Source: an uncultured Kordiimonas sp.
GTDB taxonomy: Bacteria; Pseudomonadota; Alphaproteobacteria; Sphingomonadales; Kordiimonadaceae
Assembly (NCBI GenBank): GCA_947500295.1
Contig: CANMRM010000004.1
Coordinates: 311,663-375,662 of the forward strand
Reading direction: 5' to 3'
DNA length: 64,000 nt
In this document: positions 43,359-61,008 of the stretch, in pieces
Layout of the letters: each line of letters starts with the position of its first letter
Numbering within the stretch: the stretch's first letter is position 1
Translations under genes and position numbers: made by a program
The notes under the pieces: generated by a model
Databases searched by the model: none
The model's input: the letters and a program-made list of their open reading frames with translations, nothing else
Told to the model about the DNA's origin: nothing

Positions 43359-43918
43359 CGGCACCAGACCATATGTGATGGGGGTGCGCCCCGATCACAA
43401 ACTCTGCTATTGGTGGGAGAGAATGGGCCGTTCTGTTGCTAGGTGGCCCAAGCCCCACCTGAAGGCGTCAACCCTCAGGAATTGAGATAAATGTAGTTTA
43501 CAGTGACAGCTTACGCTGCAACTGCCAACTCGACAGGATTGTCGTTAGCATTTATTTTAAGGTGGCCCATCACGGCGGTGCCATCCCGGGCGAAAGACAA
43601 ACAACTTTCGATACACGTCGATCCTGGTTCGCCCCCATCAGCAAGGATCAGACCTTTGTCTGACCTTTTGTCTGGTCCTTCCTGGTGGAGGCGCCGGGCA
43701 CTGCCCCCGGGTCCGCAATACGTACTCACTGCGTCGTTTATCGCCATAGCTGGCAAGCCAGCCCCTTCTATATAGGGTGTGTTCAGGCAAAATAGAAGTC
43801 AGATTATTAACTTTCCCAATCGGATCACAGCCACCCCATAGATGAGGGTAGTACAGCTTACTCTTTGTTTTTCTTGATTTTTTGATGTTACTACCATTAC
43901 GCTGCCGTCGGGGACACC
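43359..43918. other. 560-bp gap with several inverted repeats
   Basis: No gene is supported here. Short frames on both strands lack ribosome-binding sites and family similarity. Several hairpins are visible: GGGG/CCCC at 43381-43392, AGGTGG with CCACCT near 43440-43460, AAGGATCAGAC (43643-43653) with GTCTGGTCCTT (43670-43680, one G-T pair), and GGTAGTA (43847-43853) with TACTACC (43889-43895) just before the BLUF gene. The region could hold a small RNA or only terminators and operators; I cannot decide. Confidence 0.4.
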
Positions 43919-54745: not shown

Positions 54746-54746
54746 G

Positions 54747-55007
54747 TTGACCGAGTAATTATCGTACAATAAAAGGGGTTTTGACGGTGCCTCGCCAGCC
54801 TGCGGCACCGTCGGAGGCCTGATAGCCCAAAGCAGGCCTCAACTGTGACGAGACCCACCCCGGGGGCGCTCTTGGAGCGCCCCCAATTATTATAGGGAGT
54901 GTGGCGCCCTGGAGGCGCCCTTACTTGTTTTAGGGGGTGAGTAGCGTCTGGCGGGCTGGCGGAAACCATATATATGTAACGTGTTTGAACAATGTGAGTG
55001 AAACCAG
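54747..55007 (+). promoter_or_regulatory. Structured leader of the ilvBNC operon
   Basis: A likely promoter (TTGACC 54747-54752, 17 bp, TAAAAG 54770-54775) is followed by four hairpins: 54783-54791 with 54804-54812 (9 bp, perfect), 54814-54821 with 54833-54840 (8 bp, perfect), 54862-54871 with 54875-54884 (10 bp, perfect, 3-base loop) and GGCGCC at 54903-54908 with 54914-54919. A 16-codon frame starts at GTG 54845 and ends with two TTA leucine codons (54887-54892), but it has no clear ribosome-binding site. Attenuation of the operon is possible. Confidence 0.55.
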
Positions 55008-59085: not shown

Positions 59086-59122
59086 TTTCTTCTGTGACTA
59101 TTTGAAATAAAATTTCCCAAAA

Positions 59123-59152
59123 TTGGTTCTTGCGCAAATAAAATAATATGAT
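59123..59152 (+). promoter_or_regulatory. Possible promoter of the leuA leader
   Basis: TTGGTT (59123-59128) and TATGAT (59147-59152) are 18 bp apart in an AT-rich stretch, 43 bp before the leader ORF. The -10 is good and the -35 is fair. Confidence 0.45.
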
Positions 59153-59194
59153 AATTCTTGCATTCTATGAATTTTACGAGGACCAGAGCGAAGC

Positions 59195-59359
59195 ATGACC
59201 ATGCCTCGACATCGGAACACGAAAGCCCGCGCGGTTGCGAAAGCAGCGTCTGCGACAGAGGCTGACACGCGCCTGATACTCTTCGGTGCGACGGTGATCC
59301 TGTCTTCTCTCCTGCTACTTGACCGCCTACTAGATGCGGGCCGACTAGTTGGCCCTTGA
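59195..59359 (+). CDS. Leucine-rich 54-codon leader ORF upstream of leuA
   Basis: A short ORF from ATG 59195 to TGA 59357-59359, 92 bp before leuA, with GAGGA at 59178-59182. Residues 27-54 contain ten leucines, including SSLLLLDRLLDAGRLVGP, and four of the leucine codons are CTA. The N-terminal half is basic. Regulatory leader peptides for leucine operons have a leucine-codon cluster in this position. The hairpins begin inside its last codons. It could instead be a small single-helix membrane protein, since residues 27-42 are hydrophobic. Confidence 0.6.
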   Translation: MTMPRHRNTKARAVAKAASATEADTRLILFGATVILSSLLLLDRLLDAGRLVGP

Positions 59360-59398
59360 GCACAACGGCAGAAGCGTATGAACGCTTCGGTGCTTAAG
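59323..59398 (+). promoter_or_regulatory. Overlapping hairpins at the end of the leuA leader
   Basis: Three alternative structures are visible. CCGC (59323-59326) with GCGG (59336-59339) spans two CTA codons. GGGCC (59338-59342) with GGCCC (59351-59355) overlaps it. CTTGAGCAC (59355-59363) with GTGCTTAAG (59390-59398, one G-T pair) encloses a perfect hairpin of GAAGCGT (59371-59377) with ACGCTTC (59382-59388). Mutually exclusive pairing near Leu codons is the logic of attenuation. The last stem lacks a T run, so the mechanism may not be intrinsic termination. Confidence 0.5.
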
Positions 59399-59451
59399 GG
59401 AACAGCCTGAAGTTAAGTTCAATCGTTCATAATAAAATTTGGGAATATATC

Positions 59452-61008
59452 ATGTCACACCGTGAACAGGACCGTGTGCGGATTTTTGATACTACATTGC
59501 GTGACGGCGAGCAGTCGCCGGGCGCCTCCATGACATTGGAAGAAAAACTGCGTATTGCAGAACAGCTTGAGGCCATGGGAGTTGATGTTATCGAGGCCGG
59601 GTTTGCGATTGCGTCAAACGGAGACTTCGAATGCGTCCGGCAAATCGCAGAGCGTATCAGGAACTCAACCGTTTGCTCCCTGGCGCGAGCAGCCCTTGGA
59701 GATATTGATCGTGCGGCGGAAGCCATCAAGCCGGCCAGAAGCGGCCGCATCCACACCTTTATCGCCACAAGCCCGCTTCATATGAAAGTGAAGCTACAAA
59801 TGGAGCCAGATGCGGTTCTTGATGCCATTCATCAGTCGGTAAGCCATGCCCGGCGCTTTACCGACGATGTTGAATGGTCGGCGGAAGACGCCACGCGGAC
59901 GGAAACAGATTTTCTGTACCGAGCCGTTGATACAGCGATCAGGGCTGGTGCAACGACAATCAACTTGCCGGATACTGTTGGTTATGCCACGCCGGACGAG
60001 TATGGCCAGATGTACCGGGACGTGATCAAAAACGTCTCAAACGCAGACAAAGCCGTGTTTTCCACCCATTGCCACAATGACCTGGGCCTGGCTGTTGCCA
60101 ATTCGCTTGCGGGTGTCATGGGTGGTGCCCGGCAGATAGAGTGCACCATTAATGGTATTGGCGAGCGCGCGGGTAACGCCGCAATGGAAGAGGTCGTCAT
60201 GGCGCTGAAAACACGGGCTGATGCCATGCCCTTCCATACCAATATCGTGTCGACAGAGATATCCAAGGCAAGCAAGCTCGTGTCTCTCGTTACCGGCTTC
60301 AGCGTGCAGAACAACAAAGCGATTGTCGGTGCCAACGCTTTTGCGCATGAAAGTGGTATTCATCAGGACGGTGTGCTCAAAGCCGCTGAAACATACGAGA
60401 TCATGACGCCCGAGTCTGTTGGTGTGACCAAAACCACGCTGGTTCTGGGCAAGCTCTCAGGCCGGGCTGCTTTCGCGGACAAATTGAAAGAACTTGGTTA
60501 TGAGCTCGGCGACAACGCTTTTCAGGATTGTTTCCGTCGCTTCAAGGAACTGGCCGACCGTAAAAAGACCATTTACGACGAAGATATTGTTGCGTTGGTA
60601 GATGACGAAGTCGCCACGTCAGAAAACCGGCTGCAGGTCGTTGCCTTGAATACACATTCTTCTTCAAGCGGCACGGCGGTCGCAGACCTGACCATGAAAA
60701 TTGATGATGAAGAAAAGAAAACAGTCGTTTATGGTTCGGGCCCGGTCGACGCTGTTTTCAATGCGATCAAGGAACTCGTGGAATTCGACCCCCATTTGGT
60801 GCTGTTTCAGGTCCACGCGGTAACGCATGGCACGGACGCACAGGCCGAGTGTACCGTTCGGCTTGAAGAGAACGGCCGTACCGTCAATGGCCAGGGCGCG
60901 CACGAAGATACTGTGACTGCCGCTGCGCGGGCCTATGTTGCAGCTGCGAACAAGCTTCTTGTCAAACGCGAGAAGACGATGCCTGACCCTATCGTGGCGG
61001 CGGGGTAG
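59452..61008 (+). CDS. leuA: 2-isopropylmalate synthase
   Basis: A 518-residue enzyme that condenses 2-oxoisovalerate and acetyl-CoA, the first committed step of leucine synthesis. The TIM-barrel domain has the RIFDTTLRDGEQSPGASM motif (about residues 10-27) and the metal-binding STHCHNDLGLAVANSLAG segment, and the C-terminal regulatory domain (about 390-510) is the leucine-sensing LeuA dimerisation domain. The ribosome-binding site GGGA precedes ATG 59452 by eight bases. It is preceded by a leader ORF and hairpins and followed by a hairpin terminator. Confidence 0.97.
   Translation: MSHREQDRVRIFDTTLRDGEQSPGASMTLEEKLRIAEQLEAMGVDVIEAGFAIASNGDFECVRQIAERIRNSTVCSLARAALGDIDRAAEAIKPARSGRIHTFIATSPLHMKVKLQMEPDAVLDAIHQSVSHARRFTDDVEWSAEDATRTETDFLYRAVDTAIRAGATTINLPDTVGYATPDEYGQMYRDVIKNVSNADKAVFSTHCHNDLGLAVANSLAGVMGGARQIECTINGIGERAGNAAMEEVVMALKTRADAMPFHTNIVSTEISKASKLVSLVTGFSVQNNKAIVGANAFAHESGIHQDGVLKAAETYEIMTPESVGVTKTTLVLGKLSGRAAFADKLKELGYELGDNAFQDCFRRFKELADRKKTIYDEDIVALVDDEVATSENRLQVVALNTHSSSSGTAVADLTMKIDDEEKKTVVYGSGPVDAVFNAIKELVEFDPHLVLFQVHAVTHGTDAQAECTVRLEENGRTVNGQGAHEDTVTAAARAYVAAANKLLVKREKTMPDPIVAAG

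Follow-up and report, generated by a model that had tools for sequence, protein, structure and literature searches.

A conserved leucine-codon leader with a covarying hairpin at its stop codon precedes leuA in Kordiimonas and is widespread in Alphaproteobacteria

We found that the short open reading frame (ORF) in front of leuA in an uncultured Kordiimonas sp. is part of an element that, by sequence comparison, is conserved among relatives. It is a leucine leader similar to the actinobacterial LEU element and widespread in Alphaproteobacteria, and the analogy with the enteric leu leader, drawn in the original prediction, is partly right. The leader most likely regulates leuA, the first dedicated leucine-making gene, in cis, and we lean, with moderate confidence, towards a leucine-sensing leader working by translational attenuation.

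The window, the 64,000-nucleotide stretch of DNA that we analyzed, places the end of the ORF 92 nt before the leuA ATG at 59452 (Table 1). The encoded LeuA scores 700.8 bits against TIGR00973 leuA_bact (cut-off 598.7) and contains the Pfam domains HMGL-like and LeuA_dimer. The gene order read from translations is ilvB-ilvN-ilvC-GNAT-leader-leuA, with GNAT and LeuA identified also by Pfam. These coordinates and family matches bear out the predicted 54-codon ORF at this distance, and a recount returned the expected ten leucines, four of them CTA, within its final 28 codons, the terminal Leu codon occupying 59345-59347. Using 40 long window ORFs (16816 codons) as the background for the proposed check of CTA usage, we found that Leu makes up 9.4% of codons and CTA 3.3% of Leu codons, so that the leader is enriched; the chance probabilities of its Leu and CTA counts are 1.4e-4 and 2.1e-4, respectively, as single-site figures uncorrected for scanning.

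Table 1. Features of the leuA leader region (window coordinates)
Feature	Position	Strand	Basis or remark
Operator-like palindrome TTGAAATAAAATTTC, upstream of leader	59102..59116	+	genome pattern search
AT-rich promoter-like stretch (candidate)	59123..59155	+	similar stretches in relatives by eye
Leader ORF	59195..59359	+	54 codons, TGA; peptide end ...LLLLDRLLDAGRLVGP-stop
N-terminal block KARAVAKAA (relatives: KAKAIAISR)	59222..59248	+	in 18 of 19 leaders by loose pattern
Leucine codon cluster, 10 Leu codons (4 CTA)	59273..59347	+	codon count
Stem 1, GGGCCGA-CUAG-UUGGCCC, abuts P2	59338..59355	+	predicted; Kordiimonas group
CGA-CUA (Arg-Leu), terminal Leu codon fourth before stop	59342..59347	+	tail counts
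Hairpin P2 (CCCUUGAGCAC...GUGCUUAAGGG)	59353..59400	+	leader stop inside 5' arm; covarying
Leader stop codon TGA, within P2 5' arm	59357..59359	+	relatives: TGA, TAA or TAG
Spacer and leuA ribosome-binding region (TTTGGGAA)	59401..59451	+	complementary to Leu-codon segment class-wide; weakly in order-level set
leuA, 2-isopropylmalate synthase	59452..61008	+	TIGR00973, Pfam

To compare relatives, we searched 40 genomes, the source genome among them, for LeuA and found it in 34 at E 1e-100; 33 of the loci have upstream DNA, and one (L018) ends at a contig edge before the gene. Leader and hairpin precede leuA at 30 of the 33 loci, with 28 clear cases, one of them (L017) outside the first pattern, and two diverged ones, with tails RLIRA-stop (L031) and RLTDP without a stop in the arm (L285). 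A recognisable leader was absent in genomes G028, G034 and G037 (loci L286-L288), and their LeuAs are the most divergent of the set (52-56% identical). The peptide ends in G-R-L-I-G-P-stop in most of the clear cases and in R-L-S-C-P, R-L-S-R-P or R-L-T-R-P in other families. This tail is frozen as nucleotides, in the form CGA (Arg), CUU or CUA (Leu), two codons, Pro and stop: in 21 order leaders, Arg is always CGA (21/21), Pro always CCT (21/21), Leu CTT in 13 and CTA in 8, and the tail Gly is GGC in 20 of 20. Synonymous differences in the tail are one third of those in leuA (pS 0.25 versus 0.76), and by this comparison the tail is under nucleotide-level constraint.

Hairpin P2 is formed by the arms 59353-59363 and 59390-59400 (CCCUURAGCAC pairing with GUGCUUAAGGG) and has an inner stem, 59371-59377/59382-59388. 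The proportion of paired cells is 98.9% in 25 sequences and 98.5% in 46. In the larger set, 6 of 10 pairs show double changes, and neither any of 500 shuffles nor any slid version reaches its covariation score. The leader stop alternates among the three stop codons with the pairing preserved, and 133 of the 143 scored elements have an in-frame stop in the arm. Stem 1, pairing 59338-59344 with 59349-59355 (GGGCCGA/UUGGCCC), is weakly supported and has no double changes among relatives. A 68-nt piece is predicted to fold at -28.4 kcal/mol, compared with an average of -19.6 for its shuffles (z -3.1; 1 of 200 as low). Longer pieces are unremarkable (z -1.5 and -1.4), and no consensus structure beyond stem 1 and P2 was found in 18 Kordiimonadaceae leaders. 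The proposal of a leucine leader in front of leuA is thus upheld by the suggested alignment: tail and P2 persist, P2 covaries and much of the leader drifts. The amino acids of an N-terminal block are kept as well.

The enteric leu operon leader leuL (Rfam RF00512) has a CTA-rich Leu-codon peptide and hairpins before leuA. The leader studied here shares the Leu-codon peptide, the CTA richness and the hairpins but has no T-run, and its stop codon lies inside the last hairpin. Three overlapping hairpins had been predicted at the ORF end; hairpins are predicted there, but the overlap of stem 1 with P2 is just 3 nt, so the two do not form a clean, mutually exclusive pair. A final stem devoid of a T-run, also predicted, was confirmed: none directly follows P2 in the window, and five or more T within the 8 nt after P2 were counted for 1 of 24 hairpins at order level and 3 of 98 at class level. 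We rejected an enteric-type terminator/antiterminator pair on the short overlap, the absence of double changes in stem 1 and the rarity of T-runs. Searched with Rfam 15, the window region matched nothing even at E 1, and 20 class loci had no match that reached the gathering score. With no intrinsic terminator, no Rfam match and the stop in the last hairpin, the enteric leuL layout of the original prediction is not supported.

To see how far the element extends, we searched the class with structural models. A model of 25 sequences matched 48 of 385 class genomes, 43 of the matches being before leuA and five away from it (L084, L090, L091, L096 and L097). A covariance model of 46 sequences matched 116 of the 385 (a few of them false) and, in the phylum, 52 of 299 genomes, with just two matches outside the class, both weak; the one of these that was read is not before leuA. 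Among the loci read next, 85 of 91 are before a leuA, which is type II in 11 of them, and six are not (L186, L192, L194, L199, L200 and L220). The downstream leuA was judged by LeuA motif or by eye in the 48 and 91 loci, and one locus (L095) is in both counts; L065, with its leuA in place, was left out of the element set for a contig-end coordinate shift. Weak matches of model R2 fall outside the loci read, e.g., in G105, G163, G195, G212, G236, G261, G351 and G365. A close LeuA is found in 193 class genomes, of which 106 have an R2 match (co-location was seen for part), and 20 of the other 87, inspected by eye, comprise about 7 with a diverged variant and 13 with no recognisable leader. The R2 E-values are 3e-11 for Methylobacterium bullatum, 8e-8 for Sphingomonas parapaucimobilis and 4e-4 for Phaeobacter inhibens; Paracoccus denitrificans and rhizobia have, by eye, more diverged Leu leaders. 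At two loci from Paracoccus and Phaeobacter (L252 and L253), the likely leader start lies a few bases past a -10-like box, and the transcript may be leaderless. At another alphaproteobacterial locus (L194), a tail like that of a leuA leader (CTACTCCTAATCCGCCTCTGA) lies, by eye, upstream of a cupin-like ORF and not of leuA.

Across the class, 133 elements have a stop in the arm, and in every one of them codon -4 from the stop is Leu (CTT in 121, CTA in 12); codon -5 is Arg in 88 (CGA in 87), Leu in 44 and His in 1. Near-duplicates were retained in these counts, and the 10 of 143 elements without such a stop were left out. This invariance is partly built in, because the models by which most elements were found contain CGACUUA; the order-level loci were located by way of LeuA. 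Outside the order, some class leaders contain few Leu besides the terminal ones. The leader also stands before a divergent type II (leuA_yeast-like) LeuA, as at L074, L095, L140, L145, L175, L178, L198, L202, L205, L206, L207, L209 and L275, S. parapaucimobilis being among the carriers. "Type II" is a working label: one example is above the TIGR00970 cut-off and the window LeuA is above that of TIGR00973, and the two kinds are related, as the window LeuA matches TIGR00970 far below its cut-off.

We computed duplex energies between the 26 nt before P2, holding the terminal Leu codons, and the stretch from P2 to the leuA start, and compared own-species with other-species combinations in two sets cleared of near-duplicates (35 elements, and 68 of 75 in an independent set). 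Own-species duplexes averaged -21.5 against -16.9 for other species (z -8.3, 0 of 5000 permutations, n=35), and the independent set gave z -6.1 (0 of 5000, n=68); with the target cut to the last 25 nt before the leuA start, the values were -6.0 and -5.2. Reversed, shuffled, distant-leader and coding-region controls ranged from z -1.9 to +0.6, the -1.9 coming from the reversed control of the second set, and a neighbouring leader stretch gave -2.7 and -2.2. The predicted probability that the Shine-Dalgarno pairs with the Leu-codon segment is 0.57 in own and 0.41 in chimeric combinations (98 elements). Covering the terminal Leu codon raises predicted Shine-Dalgarno accessibility from 0.30 to 0.50 in 35 elements, with a change above 0.2 upwards in 16 and downwards in 1. 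No support was found for pairing of the P2 loop with the first 30 nt downstream, the only kind of pseudoknot tested (z -1.8 in 98 class and -0.1 in 24 order elements), or of the P2 3' arm with downstream sequence.

The class-wide own-species complementarity points to translational attenuation and not to enteric-type termination; among the options named in the original prediction, it is translational control that the wider class suggests. A ribosome would translate the short leader ORF and, with ample charged Leu-tRNA, reach the stop inside P2 and depart; P2 would then close, and the preceding Leu-codon segment would pair with the leuA ribosome-binding region and keep leuA translation down. With Leu-tRNA scarce, the ribosome would wait at the terminal Leu codons, which in many cases follow the slow codon CGA, and hide the segment from pairing so that leuA could be translated. 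Leu codons such as CUC-CUU would themselves be the anti-Shine-Dalgarno. We infer the stalling, the response to leucine and the direction of control from sequence and modelled folding, and our confidence stays moderate because the predicted accessibility also rises when other parts of the leader are covered (to 0.43 ten codons upstream and 0.41 at the stop). In translational attenuators of the erm/cat type, a stalled leader ribosome keeps the downstream ribosome-binding site from sequestration. The leuA leader would resemble these in that a stalled ribosome frees the downstream site and differ in that the signal would be a shortage of Leu-tRNA and that a hairpin separates the two pairing segments.

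In the window's own group, the pairing step is weakly supported. The 26-nt test was null in the order-level set (z -0.9, n=24); other combinations gave -2.3 to -3.0, next to a shuffled control of -2.1 and, in another test, a reversed control of -2.65, and the last 25 nt before the start gave -2.3 and -2.5. Predicted accessibility there did not change when the terminal Leu codon was covered (0.39 to 0.38). As read from the alignments, the Kordiimonas order retains the sensor and P2, and its output may be another one. Such an output could be transcription attenuation without an intrinsic terminator, where the position of the leader ribosome decides on a Rho-dependent or paused-polymerase stop before leuA. 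The stable structure of P2 and stem 1 about 50 nt before leuA would suit this reading, but T-runs after P2 are rare and the class-wide complementarity with the ribosome-binding region would be left without a purpose, and we consider it unlikely.

The N-terminal block of the leader behaves in the reverse way to the tail (pS 0.78, pN 0.29, in a KAKAIAISR-like block picked out with a loose pattern, a selection that by itself lowers pN). The apparent constraint on its amino acids makes translation of the ORF probable, and some of the peptide may be of importance. A role of the ORF product as a small membrane peptide, or as a leader peptide with two functions, the hairpin being secondary, would agree with this basic, conserved block followed by a Leu-rich stretch. 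We nevertheless find it improbable that this is what the ORF is for: the tail is conserved as nucleotides down to its CGA and CCT codons, a covarying stem contains the stop, the association of the element with leuA is kept and many leaders from beyond the order show, by eye, no evident block.

Among described systems, the LEU element that precedes leuA in Actinobacteria (Seliverstov et al. 2005, PMC1262725) comes closest. It has a leader with a Leu run whose codons pair with the leuA Shine-Dalgarno, together with a pseudoknot. Both elements have a Leu-run leader ORF before leuA and neither has the parts of a classical attenuator; pairing of the Leu codons with the leuA Shine-Dalgarno is supported in the alphaproteobacterial class and weak in the window's order. 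LEU differs in having been described for Actinobacteria and with a pseudoknot, to which the alphaproteobacterial sets lend no support. Mutations of the leuA leader in Streptomyces coelicolor are summarised there as behaving unlike classical attenuation, which we count against an attenuation model for the leuA leader. Binding of a regulatory protein has been proposed for LEU in the same source, and a protein site made of P2 and the CGACUUA segment would fit their strong nucleotide conservation, but the P2 loop and much of the P2 sequence are variable, an in-frame Leu codon is what stays most constant and species-specific pairing can account for the segment in much of the class, so that we give this explanation little credence.

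Actinobacterial leader tails resemble the alphaproteobacterial ones (Microbacterium GLLLLSCRDESSD, Nonomuraea GLLLSCRGGGL), and in Microbacterium (L280) a Leu run and CTTAGCTGCC are immediately followed by a hairpin (by eye). The stop was seen, by eye, past the 5' arm of the hairpin in four actinobacterial loci but is inside the arm in the alphaproteobacterial leader. Model R2 marginally found the leaders of Microbacterium (E 0.037) and Nonomuraea (E 0.33) in the right place and without P2; the same search had a chance match at E 0.51 and did not report those of Tsukamurella and Nocardia. LeuL1 of Streptomyces lividans (MRFGLLLLSCRGEGL) is a leucine leader peptide of leuA with 15 residues and a leaderless transcript (PMC8079986). 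It has, like the alphaproteobacterial leader, no typical Rho-independent terminator, and its type of ending, LLLLSC, also closes several alphaproteobacterial leaders before P-stop; its 15 residues, leaderless transcript and actinobacterial host set it apart. We tentatively suggest, as a possibility we still hold to be doubtful, that the leuA leaders of the two groups could be one ancient leucine switch, with Leu codons as the anti-Shine-Dalgarno and a hairpin between, kept while the enzyme was swapped between two divergent LeuA kinds and rewired to another output in lineages such as Kordiimonas.

Beside the leader, leuA may also have a transcription-factor site. The palindrome TTGAAATAAAATTTC has 33 matches in its own genome (4.27 Mb, up to 2 mismatches), the exact one only at the leuA leader, and the only match with 1 mismatch is upstream of leuC (L222 from position 1501), a name backed by a protein family match; because no other site this close exists, the sequence suggests an operator of a leucine regulon. 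Of 17 loci tested within the genus, 13 contain the pattern (T/G)TGAAATAAAATTTC, and its strict form was present in 0 of 5 loci from other genera. A promoter scan gave 3 hits, no improvement on the 2.4 expected from shuffles. Elsewhere in the window, the region upstream of ilvB (54746-55007) has two GC-rich hairpins, possibly a separate control element, and 43422-43801 (-) is an ordinary alphaproteobacterial tmRNA gene, also matched by the permuted tmRNA model.

We found no account of the leader in Alphaproteobacteria in the literature searched, which did not extend to Vitreschak et al. 2004, and a word search of PMC2864571 gave no mention of leuA. A control element matched in 116 of 385 sampled alphaproteobacterial genomes, a few of the matches being false, is without a matching Rfam entry. 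If the proposed mechanism is true, the codons that sense leucine would themselves be the anti-Shine-Dalgarno sequence. The question of common descent versus convergence arises because the layout fronts two divergent LeuA kinds and is similar to the LEU element of Actinobacteria.
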